64,000 nucleotides of DNA from a virus: positions 154,056 to 218,055 of IMG/VR virus record IMGVR_UViG_3300036766_002289. The stretch is one strand, 5' to 3'. Positions 3,799-55,901 of this stretch are shown here, in pieces. How positions within the stretch are numbered: the first letter of the stretch is position 1; the number at the start of each line of letters is the position of its first letter. Below the pieces are notes generated by a model, which searched no databases, was not told where the DNA came from, and saw only the letters and a program-made list of their open reading frames with translations. A program made the position numbers and the translations under genes.

Positions 3799-5103
3799 AT
3801 GGGGACGCGAGGAAAAAGGAAAATTAGTCGTTATTGTGATTTTTGTTCAAGGTCAGAAGATGAGGCAGGACGCTTGGTGGAAGGTCCAGGTGGTCCTAAT
3901 CATGGGAAAATGGAAGGTGAATTTACATCCTACATCTGTGGGAAATGTCTGGATGCCTGTACACGGCTTCTACAAACCAAACCTGTTATCCATACCCCTA
4001 CCAAAATCCCTAATCCAAAAGAATTGGTAGCCAAACTCAATCAACATGTCATCGGCCAAGATCGTGCCAAGAAAGTCTTAGCCGTTGCTGTGTCTAACCA
4101 CTATAAGCGACTGATCGACGAAGATTACGTAAGACAAACTAAGAATTCTTTAGACCCCCTTGATTCCGTCGTTATTGATAAGAGCAATATCCTTATGCTC
4201 GGGCCTACAGGTTGTGGTAAAACCTTATTGTGCCAAACCTTAGCAACCTTACTTGACGTTCCTTTTGCCATTGGTGACGCAACTACTTTGACGGAAGCAG
4301 GTTACGTTGGCGAAGACGTTGAAAACCTGTTGCTTCGTTTGATCCATGCTGCCGATTTTGATATTGAGAAGGCTCAAACTGGCATCATTTATATTGATGA
4401 AATTGATAAGATCGGCAAGACTAGCCAGAATGTCTCTATTACGCGAGATGTTTCTGGTGAAGGTGTTCAGCAAGCCTTACTTAAGATGCTTGAAGGAACA
4501 ATTGCCAACGTACCACCAACTGGTGGCCGTAAGCATCCTGAGCAACAGTACTTGCAAATTGACACTACTAATATCTTATTCATCTGTGGTGGTGCGTTCG
4601 TTGGGCTGGAAGATATTGTGGGGCAAAGACTTGGGAAGAAAAGCATTGGATTCGGTGTTACCCTAGAAGATCATGATTACGATGAGAAAAAGAAGCGTGA
4701 TTGGTTACTGGCTCGCACAACTCCAGATGATTTGATTCATTTTGGGTTAATTCCTGAATTGGTAGGACGTATGCCAGTTATTGCCCCATTGAACGAATTG
4801 AATGAAGAGTCTTTGATTAAGGTTCTTACTGAGCCTAAGAGCGCATTGCTCAAGCAATATGCTAAGTTGTTTCGCTATAACAACGCAAAGCTCGAATTCT
4901 CGGAAGGGGCAATTCGAGAAATTGCAAAAAAAGCTATCAAGCTTAATACTGGTGCCAGAGCATTACGTGGGGTCGTTGAAGACTTAATGCTTGAATGGCA
5001 GTATGAATTGGAAGATGGTAAGGGGCAGACTTACATTGTTACTGAGGAAGTAGTCAAGGGCGAAAAACCTTTGGTGGCCGAAGCAACTAAGGAAGCTGCA
5101 TAG
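3799..5103 (+). CDS. clpX: ATP-dependent Clp protease ATP-binding subunit ClpX
   Basis: 434 aa, full length. Zinc-binding domain with CDFC and CGKC (residues 13-50). Walker A GPTGCGKT near residue 135, pore loop GYVG, Walker B IYIDEID, RKH loop in GGRKHPEQ, and sensor 2 GARALRG. The ClpP-docking IGF tripeptide is present at residues 283-285 (SIGFG). All machine parts known in cellular ClpX are intact, so it should unfold proteins and can probably feed host ClpP. No clpP is seen here. AAGGAG precedes the start. The stop codon UAG is the first base triplet of a repeated 17-nt element. Confidence 0.95.
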
Positions 5104-16451: not shown

Positions 16452-16457
16452 TTGTAT

Positions 16458-16530
16458 GCTCTTGTAGCTCAATGGGAGAGCGACGAACTCTAAATTCGAT
16501 TGGTTGAGGGTTCGAATCCCTCCAAGAGCG
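16458..16530 (+). tRNA. suppressor tRNA, anticodon CUA (reads UAG)
   Basis: 73 nt. Acceptor stem GCTCTTG (16458-16464) pairs fully with CAAGAGC (16523-16529); discriminator G. D-arm GCTC-AATGGGA-GAGC, T-arm GAGGG-TTCGAAT-CCCTC. The anticodon stem CGAA/TTCG encloses the loop CTCTAAA, with U33, anticodon CUA (16490-16492) and A37; the outermost pair 27-43 is A-A. CCA is not encoded. The amino acid is unknown; G73 fits several, including Gln. Confidence 0.87.
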
Positions 16531-16532
16531 TT

Positions 16533-22411: not shown

Positions 22412-22468
22412 ATAACCCCTTTGTTGTTCAGGCATAACACATGTGTATCTATGCTTTAAGGAGAAAAA

Positions 22469-22831
22469 ATGGACGAGTTTTTGTAGAACGATGAATATTA
22501 TGTTTATGTTTTTACGAGAGAGGATTTACCATCAATTACTGCTTTAGTGCAATCCTGCCATGCGAGCATGGAAGCAATACGTCATTACCCTCTTCCTGTT
22601 GAAGTTATTCCAAACCTTGTTGTTTTTGGGATTTCAAATGAGAAAAAACTTATTTGTGTGCAAGAGAAATTAAATACTTTAGGTGTTAAATTTAGAACAT
22701 TTGTTGAACCAGATCGTGACAACGAGATAACAGCACTGGCAACGGAACCAGTAAATGGTGAAGTTAGAAAGATTTTTAAGAAATATCAATTACTTAAACT
22801 AAGGAGTCAGCATGAAACTATCAAGTTATAA
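22469..22831 (+). CDS. peptidyl-tRNA hydrolase 2-like protein with an in-frame UAG at codon 6
   Basis: 120 codons including the UAG at 22484-22486. AAGGAG precedes ATG 22469, then five codons (MDEFL), UAG, and an open frame beginning NDEYYVYVFTREDLPS, with VQSCHASMEA, LVVFGISNEKKL and NEITALATEP in the order of PTH2-like proteins. No ATG, GTG or TTG lies between the UAG and GTG at 22547, which would remove the first strand and helix. A tRNA(CUA) is encoded 6 kb upstream. Alternatives are a nonsense mutation or a base error. Confidence 0.7.
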
Positions 22832-24697: not shown

Positions 24698-24736
24698 AAT
24701 CTGTGTCATGCTAATAAATATAGTATGACACAGATT
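24698..24736 (+). promoter_or_regulatory. 12-bp inverted repeat over a start codon
   Basis: AATCTGTGTCAT (24698-24709) and its exact complement at 24725-24736, 15-nt loop. The right arm contains the ATG at 24725, so the hairpin would hide the start codon, or the repeat could be an operator. Confidence 0.6.
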
Positions 24737-25158
24737 CTTTTAAATACCCCAGATAGCACAGATCAATGGACGGTTCCAGATAATGTAATAAGTGTTTTTG
24801 TTGAATGCATTGGCCCAGGTGGTGGCGGCGGGCTTCCTTCTTATGTTAGTAGTGGAGGTGGTGGAGGTGGTGGAGGTGCGGGCGCAGATTTAGACAGTGG
24901 AAATCCAGGATCAAATGGTTCTCAAGGTGGAATAGGTGCAGGTGGTGGTGGAGGTGCCCAATTTTCTGTCGTTTGACTGATGACGGAGTAACTAATCGTA
25001 GTTATTATTTTTCTACCAATGGGCTTGATTGGATGAAATTAGTAGATTATGTTCGCACTACCTACATGACCGCAATAGGAGTGGGCTTTTTTGGGGACGG
25101 TGCTAGTAATGATAACGTCCCATTCATGTTAAATCTATTAAGTGTGAAGATAAGTTGA
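24725..25158 (+). pseudogene. broken glycine-rich structural gene
   Basis: The first frame (24725-24976, 83 aa) has a typical phage appendage start (LLNTPDSTDQWTVPDNVISV) and a Gly-rich stretch. It closes at TGA. In another frame the text resumes as LTDDGVTNRSYYFSTNGLDW and ends LNLLSVKIS (25158), like the distal part of such proteins. The product is far shorter than usual, which points to an internal deletion with a frame change. Confidence 0.6.
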
Positions 25159-32109: not shown

Positions 32110-32364
32110 ATGGCTGGATATCATCTGAATGACATTCCCCGTGGCGAATACGGTGAGCTTTCTAAGGTAATTGAAGAAGCTTTAGAGCTAAAAGACGCTA
32201 TGGAACAAGGGCAGAAATTGATGTGTCTTATTGAGCTTGCCGATATACTCGGGGCCATCGAAGGATATTTAGAAAAATATTATGAAGGCAAGATTACTGT
32301 TGATGATCTTTTTAACATGTCCTATGCTACCAAAAGAGCTTTTGAGTCAGGATATAGAAAATGA
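32110..32364 (+). CDS. MazG-like NTP pyrophosphohydrolase
   Basis: 84 aa. GELSKVIEEALELKDAM and IELADILGAIEGYL supply the ExxE...ExxD metal motifs of all-alpha NTP pyrophosphatases. These hydrolyse NTPs or alarmone-like nucleotides, and phage copies can change host (p)ppGpp or dNTP balance. Coupled by ATGA to the second ADP-ribosylglycohydrolase. Confidence 0.8.
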   Translation: MAGYHLNDIPRGEYGELSKVIEEALELKDAMEQGQKLMCLIELADILGAIEGYLEKYYEGKITVDDLFNMSYATKRAFESGYRK

Positions 32365-33254
32365 GTATTGAAGATAAGAAACGTGGAGCATTCTGGGGCT
32401 TAATTATCGGGGACGCTCTTGGGGCACCCGTAGAATTTAAAATGCCTGGTGAATTTGTTCCAGTAACAGATTACCAGAGTGGTGGCCCACATAGCCTTAA
32501 TAAGGGCGAATGGACTGATGATACAAGTCTTGCTCTTGCTCTTGCTGATAGTCTGGCCAATGGCTGGAATACTAAAGACCAACTTGACAAGTATTGTAGC
32601 TGGTATGAAGAAGGCAAGTACTCCGTCAATGGTTGGTGTTTTGATATCGGTGGCACTACAAAACATGCCTTGGAAAACTATAGGGACAGTGGTAATCCAG
32701 AAACTTGTGGGCTAGCCGATGATGATTATTCAGGGAATGGTTCGATTATGAGATTGGCACCAGTGCCAATTAAATATTCAGAATTGTTTTTTGATCTAGA
32801 TGAACTCATCAGATTAGCAGAAGAATCTAGTGCTACAACTCATGCAAGTAAGAAATGTAGAGATTGTTGTGCATACCTAGCCACATTAATAGCTGGATTA
32901 ATCAATGGAATTGATAGGGAAATCTTACTGAATGACCCTTATTATATTCCACCAAAAGTATGTACAGCCGTAAGACTAGTCGCAGAAGGTAGTTACCGCA
33001 AAAACAAGGTCAAAGGCAGTGGTTATGTAGTAGAAAGCTTGGAAGCTGCTTTATGGGCTTTTCACAAAGCTGAGAATTTCAGGAAAGCTGTCTTGGCTGC
33101 GGTTAATCTAGGAGATGATGCGGACACTACGGCGGCGGTCTGTGGGCAGTTGGCTGGGGCTTATTGGGGGTTTGAAGCTATTCCAGAGGAATGGCGTATT
33201 AATTTAGCTAAAAATGATTTAATAGAAGGCTATTTTAATGCCCTGATAAAATAA
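32361..33254 (+). CDS. ADP-ribosylglycohydrolase (ADPRH/DraG family), copy 2
   Basis: 297 aa. GEWTDDTSLALAL (about residue 47), FDIGGTTKHAL, GNGSIMRLAPV and NLGDDADTTAAVCGQLAG (about 252) are the full set of family motifs, including Mg ligands. It is closer to the classic bacterial family pattern than copy 1 at 12692. Two erasers with one PARP suggest different substrates or timing. Confidence 0.93.
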   Translation: MSIEDKKRGAFWGLIIGDALGAPVEFKMPGEFVPVTDYQSGGPHSLNKGEWTDDTSLALALADSLANGWNTKDQLDKYCSWYEEGKYSVNGWCFDIGGTTKHALENYRDSGNPETCGLADDDYSGNGSIMRLAPVPIKYSELFFDLDELIRLAEESSATTHASKKCRDCCAYLATLIAGLINGIDREILLNDPYYIPPKVCTAVRLVAEGSYRKNKVKGSGYVVESLEAALWAFHKAENFRKAVLAAVNLGDDADTTAAVCGQLAGAYWGFEAIPEEWRINLAKNDLIEGYFNALIK

Positions 33255-45684: not shown

Positions 45685-46698
45685 ATGCACGGCATCCGTA
45701 GTATTAATCTGAAGACTTCCGAAATGCAGGAAATGCAGGAAATCATGTCCAAGGGCAATACTCTGCTCAAAGAGTGTGCTGAGATGTTGGGCATGAGCAA
45801 AGGGGAGTTTCGTGGCAAGCTTTTCAACCGAAAGCTCGACACTAGCAACCTTTCCGAAGAACAATTCCAAAAGCTAGAAGCAGCTAAGCCCCACATCATG
45901 GCAGTCCATGATAAGTGCGAGCTTAAGATTCTTAGTGGTTTCACCAGAATGGTGCAAAAGCAAGCTAAGGTTGCTGCTTCCAACAGTAGTGATCCCAAGA
46001 ACGTTTTCTATGAATTCGAGCAAGTTGGTATGCTCGCAGTGTTAGACTCCATTTATGGTTACACTAACACGAATATCAAGTTCATTACCTATGTCTGGAA
46101 GATTGTCCGCCGCCGCATTAATCTCACGATTAATCGTCTCAATCCGTTCTGTCCTTTGACGAATGAAGCTATGAATCTTGTGCAGGGTTTTGAAGCGACC
46201 AAGGTTAAGTTTAATCGTCAAGTCAATACTGAGGAAGTCGTTGAAGCGATGGGCATTACGGCTGCTCAGCGTGAAGTTTTGTTTGCTGCAACAACTAAGG
46301 TAGTGAACGAATTGCAGGCAGGGCCACAAAGTAATTCGGATCATGATTTTGTTGCTAGTGACTACACTGCAATGCGTCGTGGAATTGATGGTGATTACCA
46401 AGAAGTTTCCCTTATCCGTAAGGATGCACGTCAAGCAATCAAGAATGCAGAATTGAGCGATATTGAATTGCATCTTCTCTTGGGAGAAATGTTCCCTTAC
46501 ACTGGTTGGAGGGAAGATATTGCTGGCAAGTTCATCAATCCAAGGACTGGCAAGCGGTATACTCGGGAAGTGACTGGCATCATCGACCGTGCCAAGGATA
46601 AGGTGCGCAAGGCTATCAAGTTCCCTCCTGAAGCCCCGAAGGAAAATCCGATTATTGACCAGATTTTCGATGAATTGAGTGGCAAATTAGCAGTTTAA
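45685..46698 (+). CDS. divergent sigma70-like factor
   Basis: 337 aa. Region 2-like segment FYEFEQVGMLAVLDSIYGYT then IKFITYVWKIVRRRINLTI (about residues 110-150) matches the core-binding and -10 region of sigma70. The C-terminal part, with YTREVTGIIDRAKDKVRKAI, has weak region 4 character. The N-terminal 100 aa are unlike known factors. Codon choice is relatively C/G-ending like clpX, as for a strongly expressed gene (impression only). Probably drives a later promoter class. Confidence 0.75.
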   Translation: MHGIRSINLKTSEMQEMQEIMSKGNTLLKECAEMLGMSKGEFRGKLFNRKLDTSNLSEEQFQKLEAAKPHIMAVHDKCELKILSGFTRMVQKQAKVAASNSSDPKNVFYEFEQVGMLAVLDSIYGYTNTNIKFITYVWKIVRRRINLTINRLNPFCPLTNEAMNLVQGFEATKVKFNRQVNTEEVVEAMGITAAQREVLFAATTKVVNELQAGPQSNSDHDFVASDYTAMRRGIDGDYQEVSLIRKDARQAIKNAELSDIELHLLLGEMFPYTGWREDIAGKFINPRTGKRYTREVTGIIDRAKDKVRKAIKFPPEAPKENPIIDQIFDELSGKLAV

Positions 46699-49810: not shown

Positions 49811-50121
49811 TGATTGAAACTTATCGTGAGTTGAGAGACATTCTGAATAAGATGGAAGATGGTCAGCTTAACCAACAGATTCAGGTCATGTTACCACAAT
49901 TTGACCGTGATAAGCCATTCCCATTGCATCCCGTCATTAGTGCGGGAACGGTGAAGTATTTTGTTTCTTCAGAAGATGGTGTTCAACAGGATGAGACTCG
50001 CAGCAGCGTAGATAACAAGCATAATCCTGAAGAATTTATTTTATTAGTAGACTGGAATCCATACGATGAGGACGGAATTATCGCGTATGATTTAGGAACA
50101 GGGGAACCGATTGAGCCATGA
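49807..50121 (+). CDS. hypothetical protein
   Basis: 104 aa. YRELRDILNKMEDGQLNQQI opens a pattern found in several phage proteins (compare 23636 and 58905). Acidic. ATGA overlaps at both ends. Confidence 0.6.
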   Translation: MMIETYRELRDILNKMEDGQLNQQIQVMLPQFDRDKPFPLHPVISAGTVKYFVSSEDGVQQDETRSSVDNKHNPEEFILLVDWNPYDEDGIIAYDLGTGEPIEP

Positions 50122-51005
50122 ACTTAAGTGAACTAACCAGAGAGACAATTAATCGTAAGATTATTAATGTATTAGAATCTAATCAAATGCCTTGGCAAAA
50201 ACCTTGGTGTGGCTGGGGAAAGAATATTGGGTTCCACCGCAACGTTGGCTCTAATAGGAAATACTTTGGTATTAATTTCTTACTATTACAAATGTCGGCT
50301 AAACGTCATGGTTTTACCAGCAAATGGTGGGGTACCGTCCATGACTTCAAGAAATTTGGTTATCAAGTAAGTGAACGTCCACCGAACGTTGAAACAGGAA
50401 CTTGGGCCACAGAGATTATTTGTTATGCACATAATCGCTATACCAGCGACATTGAAACAATCTCAGAAGTAGTCTATAACTCTGAACAACTAACCCAGAC
50501 TTTTGAAGCCTATAATCCAGCACCTAAGTTGAATGTAAATTATGAGTTATGTGAAAAAATTCTCAATAAAGTTCCAGTTAAGTTAGAAACTAATGATAGT
50601 GGACTTGCATTGTATCATTATCCGCCCCATGATTATATTACAATGCCTTCCCAAGTGGATTTTATGTTAGGATTGACTGGTTTACCTGGCTATTATGAAT
50701 GTCTGGCACATGAATTGATTCATTATAGTGAAACAAGGTTAAATTTCCACACTGGATATGAAGCTATTAGAGAATTAAGGGCAGAGATTGGAGCGGCGAT
50801 GTTGGTTCAAGAGTTAGGTTTGCCGCATAGCATTAACTTCATGAATTTTAGGAAATGGTCAACCACCTGGATTAACTTTATGAATCGAGATACGGATTTG
50901 ATTTTCAGGATTGCGGCAGCGGCTACCAAAGCAGTGGATTTTATCCTGGATTTCAGTAATATGAAAGAGGAAAGGTTCAATGAATTAAGTGAGGAAGCAG
51001 CATAA
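50118..51005 (+). CDS. ArdC-like antirestriction protein
   Basis: 295 aa. N-terminal 100 aa start with helices leading to MPWQKPWCGWG, the ssDNA-binding part of ArdC/TraC-type proteins. The zincin motif AHELIHYSE (HExxH, about residue 197) and RELRAEIGAAML follow as in ArdC metalloprotease domains. ArdC shields incoming DNA from restriction (family knowledge). Confidence 0.82.
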   Translation: MNLSELTRETINRKIINVLESNQMPWQKPWCGWGKNIGFHRNVGSNRKYFGINFLLLQMSAKRHGFTSKWWGTVHDFKKFGYQVSERPPNVETGTWATEIICYAHNRYTSDIETISEVVYNSEQLTQTFEAYNPAPKLNVNYELCEKILNKVPVKLETNDSGLALYHYPPHDYITMPSQVDFMLGLTGLPGYYECLAHELIHYSETRLNFHTGYEAIRELRAEIGAAMLVQELGLPHSINFMNFRKWSTTWINFMNRDTDLIFRIAAAATKAVDFILDFSNMKEERFNELSEEAA

Positions 51006-55730: not shown

Positions 55731-55901
55731 ATGGGAAGATTAATAACGCCGATGTCTAAGGAAGAATATGAAAAACTCCCACCCCGACAGAAATGGATGG
55801 TGGATCATTCTTATCTAATAATGGGTTTTTTCATATTTGGTATGCTTTGTATGCTTTCTGCTATAGAATTTGTAATGTTTGTTTTCAGGGGATGGAAATG
55901 A
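55731..55901 (+). CDS. small single-helix membrane protein
   Basis: 56 aa. Charged N-terminus (about 1-27) and one long hydrophobic helix (LIMGFFIFGMLCMLSAIEF). Strong GAGGAGGTGAG upstream. ATGA overlap with the next gene. Confidence 0.6.
   Translation: MGRLITPMSKEEYEKLPPRQKWMVDHSYLIMGFFIFGMLCMLSAIEFVMFVFRGWK

Follow-up and report, generated by a model that had tools for sequence, protein, structure and literature searches.

The gene of release factor 2, prfB, contains an early in-frame UGA that is passed by +1 frameshifting, with RF2 itself acting as the sensor of its own output. In phages using genetic code 15, a phage-encoded tRNA(CUA) reads UAG within phage genes, and a role in the timing of expression has been proposed (PMC10879173; PMC13037316). 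Other suppressor tRNAs of phages have been left without a target. The authors of the XacN1 genome sought targets of its suppressor tRNAs and found none (PMC5852040), the genome paper of Atu_ph07 identified none for its tRNA(UCA) (PMC6102473), and the RsoM2USA paper names no suppressor tRNA target (PMC8504454). Here we describe a gene of a giant phage whose sixth codon is UAG, and propose from comparative sequence data that this stop very probably serves as a translational on-switch for single genes that depends on a suppressor tRNA. In the literature searched (subscription papers and preprints lay outside its scope) we found no prior description of a stop-gated PTH2 gene paired with a suppressor tRNA.

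The window analysed is a stretch of 64,000 nucleotides, positions 154056-218055 of a phage record of 390,039 bases, the whole of which we refer to as G000; no DNA-level relatives of the window were found in the phage collection searched. On the plus strand, a Shine-Dalgarno sequence AAGGAG (22458-22463) lies 5 nt 5' of the ATG at 22469, which opens a leader of five codons, ATG GAC GAG TTT TTG (MDEFL, 22469-22483). Codon 6 is an in-frame UAG (22484-22486) followed by an A (UAGA), and its position is kept in diverged relatives. Past the UAG the frame is intact and encodes the 114 residues of a PTH2-like peptidyl-tRNA hydrolase (22487-22831, with a TAA at 22829-22831), an assignment that draws on profile and predicted structure. 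The start, leader, stop and intact frame are all present as the preliminary description had given them, and its claim that no alternative start would preserve the first strand of the fold holds as well. Indeed, the first in-frame start-like codon past the UAG is a GTG at 22547, which lacks a Shine-Dalgarno sequence; a protein begun there would lack the invariant Arg11 as well as beta-strand 1, which the AF2 model places at residues 5-11 past the UAG.

Elsewhere in the window, PHROG matches point to an ADP-ribosylglycohydrolase-like gene (32361-33254), a sigma-factor-like gene (45685-46698) and an anti-restriction-like gene (50118-51005). Within 24725-25158, a glycine-rich frame closes with a TGA at 24976 and an overlapping frame at 24973-25158 comes next, possibly a frameshift or a split gene.

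Taken as a single sequence, the post-UAG protein matches Pfam PTH2 with E = 8e-4 and 20.1 bits, under the Pfam cut-off of 23. The profile of its family matches PDB 2zv3 with E = 9e-12, and the relative in phage Phosso matches Pfam PTH2 at 4e-20. The AF2 model of the post-UAG protein (pLDDT 92.8) has the PTH2 fold: the top 13 Foldseek matches are all PTH2 chains, with a probability of 1.00. Residues R11, Q22, H25, T82 and A83 are invariant in the family. By profile and predicted structure, the protein is a PTH2-type peptidyl-tRNA hydrolase, with hydrolysis as its putative activity. Beta-strand 1 starts five residues past the UAG and the matching strand of the M. jannaschii PTH2 starts at residue 2; the UAG therefore sits where an ordinary PTH2 would begin. 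Several of these phages have a second PTH-like match elsewhere in the genome.

A tblastn search with the window protein returned relatives from 30 phage records, with identities of 30-44%. An early UAG stands right after the ATG in GAP32, CBB, XbC2, Kaldavass, the BF/SNUABM group, Arash, ME3 and metagenomic phages of 595 kb and 735 kb. The leader peptide ahead of the UAG varies among the relatives: it reads MAQ in GAP32 and CBB, MAH in XbC2 and Kaldavass, MTH in the BF group and LR756511, ML in Arash, MT in ME3, MS in LR756501, MKY in Phosso and MK in the fusion proteins described below. Between GAP32 and CBB the DNA just 5' of the start differs, with ATG GCA CAA TAG retained. Across isolate and huge phages the stop lies 2-7 codons past the ATG, and most gated ATGs of the relatives have SD-like sites upstream. 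The relative in K64-1 has no gate, and there is no CUA among the 7 tRNAs of that phage. Ungated homologues in general do not show a later genuine start with nothing conserved upstream, the arrangement that the preliminary description had named as evidence against a gate; they begin just before beta-strand 1. In XacN1 and CM1 an HD domain precedes the PTH2 in one fused frame that begins MK-UAG, while the IMG/VR fusions L184 and L197 begin MNLA-UAG and MSFT-UAG, respectively. In public annotation, the gated gene has no CDS in BF and its kin and is truncated in GAP32, CBB, Arash and Atu_ph07.

The homologous frame of GAP32, CBB, XbC2 and the BF group has a dN/dS of about 0.03-0.12. Over the 30 codons that directly follow the UAG, all of them ahead of any annotated start, the ratio is about 0.06-0.08, with a dS of 0.54-0.71 and a dN of 0.035-0.049 among GAP32, XbC2 and the BF group. 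These values indicate that the frame is under purifying selection at the protein level, beginning directly past the stop. A lone stop early in a frame typically points to a sequencing error or a decaying pseudogene, but the same feature occurs in independent isolate genomes and in metagenomes, dN/dS is well below 1 after the stop, and the stop is always UAG save for three UGA with tRNA(UCA) and one UAA. Conservation of the stop across phages and the dN/dS values rule out this explanation for the gene at 22469, and we give it practically no credence.

A profile scan of IMG/VR for PTH2 yielded 80 loci, which include a few entries for the isolate phages or near copies of them. Our gate-calling script, which required that an ATG precede the stop and that no ATG with an SD follow it, called 51 of them UAG-gated and 2 UGA-gated. 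Inspection by eye adds seven UAG loci (L173, L176, L177, L184, L197, L244 and L248), which brings the gated loci to about 58 with UAG and 2 with UGA among the 80; L219 is ambiguous and 19 are ungated. In a second PTH2 subfamily all 12 of 12 IMG/VR loci are gated. By these sequence comparisons, the gated PTH2 gene is one that recurs in dozens of unrelated phages besides the giant phage of the window. The upstream ATG and the downstream ORF share one frame in all gated genes. A purine after a stop codon makes for a suppressible context; the base after the stop is a purine in 138 of 142 gated genes, which fits such a context.

The architecture of these loci varies. In L003, L004, L184 and L197 an HD-domain protein is N-terminal to PTH2 and the fusion is gated by a UAG at codon 3-5; in L202, L213, L215, L221 and L201 the PTH2 has another, unnamed N-terminal domain and is ungated, with a tRNA(CUA) nearby. 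Two in-frame UAGs precede the PTH2 fold in L176 (about 4040-4398) and L177 (MRPFQ-UAG-TKEEYG-UAG-DQHFYVY). The gene of LR756501 (L008:1498-1887) has a second UAG within the PTH2 frame (EFP-UAG-IYEQW) besides the one at codon 3.

A scan of G000 for this arrangement turned up one further strong candidate, at 55827, where ATG CTC UAG is followed by a protein of 78 residues. This second UAG-gated gene (G000:55827-56072, outside the window; L079:15827) belongs to a family that we call FHFNK after its motif and reads ML-UAG-VENCDCVFHFNK.... Other layout candidates in G000, such as the one at 78088, were rejected for an SD-preceded restart ATG. Of 80 IMG/VR loci of the FHFNK family, 77 have the gate, in every case a UAG and mostly at codon 3. 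In Rhizobium phage RHph_I1_18 the FHFNK gene is unannotated and a tRNA(CUA) begins tens of bases downstream; in Phosso and Atu_ph07 FHFNK occurs as a C-terminal domain, in a protein whose gene lies two genes downstream from the gated PTH2. The fold of FHFNK is predicted with confidence, and searches of Pfam, PHROG, NCBIfam and PDB folds returned no match that would point to a function. Applied to the IMG/VR loci and G000 together, the layout scan (Shine-Dalgarno, ATG, short leader, stop, ORF) returned, beyond what chance would give, exactly two sizeable conserved clusters, one of 56 UAG and one of 39 UAG plus 2 UGA. The remainder are singletons over all stops (67 UGA, 52 UAG and 44 UAA) plus chance pairs, beyond which the scan gave no further conserved stop-gated family.

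The second family also bears on the possibility that the leader works as a minigene, of which bar of phage lambda is an example. The 2-7-codon leaders do resemble minigenes and the window gene encodes a peptidyl-tRNA hydrolase, so that an ATG, a few codons and UAG might lead to peptidyl-tRNA drop-off, and low Pth activity could feed back on the synthesis of PTH2, suppression being secondary. FHFNK, however, has the same gate, and yet no library or fold match makes it a hydrolase. Moreover, the frame would still require readthrough because there is no start after the stop, and we regard the minigene explanation as very unlikely. Slightly less improbable, though still poorly favoured, is that the leader is a short upstream ORF, with termination at the UAG and re-initiation at a nearby non-standard codon such as AUU. 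AUU is a rare natural start codon (infC), and among gated genes it is the codon next to the stop in 51 of 77 for FHFNK and in 19 of 53 for PTH2. Against this, the window gene has AAC as its first post-stop codon, other genes have GAA, GTT, AAT or ACT there, and the Shine-Dalgarno sequence is positioned for the ATG ahead of the stop. Re-initiation also predicts neither the linkage to tRNA(CUA) nor the change from UAG/CUA to UGA/UCA, both of which are set out below.

The tRNA(CUA) that the preliminary description reported in the same window lies at 16457-16531 on the plus strand, about 6 kb upstream of the gated gene. It is a presumed suppressor (ARAGORN; Rfam tRNA 66.6 bits) with G1-C72, discriminator G73 and no encoded CCA. 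ARAGORN detects no other CUA tRNA in the 390 kb of G000, whose remaining tRNAs nearly all lie at 20-75 kb of the genome, far from it. Our calls of CUA tRNAs come from ARAGORN; an earlier pattern scan was noisy and missed some. The tRNA(CUA) is usually less than 10 kb from the gated gene, and the suppressor tRNA is on the strand of the gated gene in 120 of 120 tRNA-gene pairs of the flanks examined; the median distance is 0.4 kb for FHFNK, and the other medians are 1.7 kb and 3.1 kb. Among anticodons CUA leads by far, at 46 of 53 PTH2a loci (the runner-up is at 19), and belongs to the sole tRNA in many loci. LR756501 carries a pair of tRNA(CUA) genes some 2.4 kb away from the gated gene, and its tRNA clusters examined are more than 300 kb off. 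In 22 of the 77 gated FHFNK loci there is no CUA tRNA in the flank examined. Conversely, a tRNA(CUA) is nearby in 15 of the 21 PTH2 loci that the script called open; the linkage is therefore not explained by gating alone. The acceptor and discriminator bases of the suppressor tRNAs, a mix of A73 and G73, give no single signature from which to assign an amino-acid identity. Anticodon-UUA (ochre) tRNAs stand beside tRNA(CUA) in the same phages at L101:11611-11685 (CM1) and L199:15138-15216.

A CUA tRNA would also be present if these phages used genetic code 15, with UAG as a sense codon throughout and the gate UAG nothing special, and recoded phages are well known (PMC10879173, PMC13037316). UAG nonetheless terminates 51 of 291 long ORFs in G000, although under code 15 it should be missing at gene ends and common within genes, and it ends 8-10% of long ORFs in the other gated loci. 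In the UGA-gated loci UGA is an ordinary terminator, and the authors of the XacN1 genome counted 18 genes with amber stops (PMC5852040). Since UAG is still an ordinary terminator in gated phages, there is no genome-wide recoding. With only two conserved UAG-containing families in the scan, both with the stop at the very start, we consider code 15 highly unlikely, even more so than a minigene.

Additional evidence for the phage tRNA as the opener of the gate comes from loci in which the stop has changed. In all 111 of 111 gated loci having a suppressor tRNA the stop matches the anticodon, with 109 UAG/CUA and 2 UGA/UCA (Fisher p = 1.6e-4, for rows that are not independent). Exactly the two UGA-gated IMG/VR relatives, L172 and L211, carry a tRNA(UCA) in the flank, and their records are free of any CUA tRNA pattern. 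Atu_ph07 has a PTH2 gene with UGA at codon 7 (MIGEHF-UGA) and carries a tRNA(UCA), and no CUA tRNA was found in the tRNA-bearing stretches examined of this phage. In its relative Phosso, 73% identical, the stop is a UAG, at codon 4, and a tRNA(CUA) stands alone roughly 4.6 kb upstream. Placed on the family tree, the three UGA rows each call for a change of their own. Unless the phage's own tRNA suppresses the stop, such co-switching of stop and anticodon is difficult to account for. One locus departs from the pattern: a PTH2 gene with UAA at codon 3 (MH-UAA-TQQDFKNYVYIFVR; L370:3650-4003) on a Neisseriaceae MAG contig, followed by genes that resemble the downstream genes of the window in syntenic order. 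Neither a UUA nor a CUA tRNA was found in the tRNA-bearing stretches examined of that fragmentary MAG.

According to the suppression model that we favour, ribosomes would initiate at the strong ATG and, with RF1 alone, halt after five codons and release a pentapeptide. The phage's charged tRNA(CUA) would decode the UAG in its leaky, purine-following context, and the PTH2-like hydrolase would be made. Gate, target gene and suppressor tRNA would then form one cassette that recurs in large standard-code phages, with FHFNK as a second target family of the same gate. The proposal in the preliminary description that the enzyme could be made only upon suppression of the UAG gains support from the conservation of the stop in diverged phages, the purifying selection right after it, the linkage to tRNA(CUA) and the three switches from UAG/CUA to UGA/UCA. 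Suppression would presumably occur in the infected cell, and the output would be expected to follow the level of the suppressor, as a switch or as a sensor. The residue inserted at the stop is probably irrelevant because ungated relatives start right at the conserved part (MKRYMYV in L010 for PTH2, MVELAC and MIKLAC in FHFNK).

Food for thought is what the gate is for. Most likely, PTH2 would be made in step with active suppression, recycling peptidyl-tRNAs as the phage tRNAs take over translation. The gate might act as a timer through accumulation of the tRNA, sense the balance between RF1 and suppressor, or respond to feedback of the enzyme on the products of the suppressor, and the switch may, as the preliminary description proposed, time itself. 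A more speculative version, to which we give a rather low chance, is a closed loop in which charged tRNA(CUA) opens the gate and the PTH2-like enzyme has as its substrate either the peptidyl or aminoacyl form of tRNA(CUA) or the readthrough products, the phage thereby sensing and limiting its own suppression. The linkage of tRNA(CUA) even to ungated PTH2 hints at such a partnership between tRNA and enzyme.

These results would give the orphan suppressor tRNAs of many standard-code large phages a specific, conserved target and a mechanism, an on-switch shared by unrelated phages and by two protein families, with matched UGA/UCA versions. As targets we propose an upstream extension of ORF364 in XacN1 (MK-UAG-TIKAMK) and, in Atu_ph07, the UGA-gated PTH2. 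The XacN1 search covered regions after annotated amber stops, and a stop two codons past a start was thus missed. Standard gene callers miss or truncate gated genes. With isolated phages at hand, the role of phage suppressor tRNAs becomes directly testable.

How does the gated gene compare with known systems? With archaeal/eukaryotic-type PTH2 the window protein shares the fold and the sequence profile, whereas it has a shorter loop, a divergent sequence (below the Pfam gathering score) and the early stop. Unlike in code-15 phages, UAG is here a normal stop genome-wide, and one or two small genes carry the gate, mostly at codon 2-8 and with an inserted residue that looks dispensable. The presumed targets differ as well, being a translation-recycling enzyme and the small FHFNK protein rather than the late structural and lysis genes of code-15 phages. 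As in prfB, an early stop lies in a translation-factor gene, and termination against an alternative event would set the output. In contrast to prfB, the gated genes keep their frame at the stop, and the presumed opener is a dedicated suppressor tRNA.
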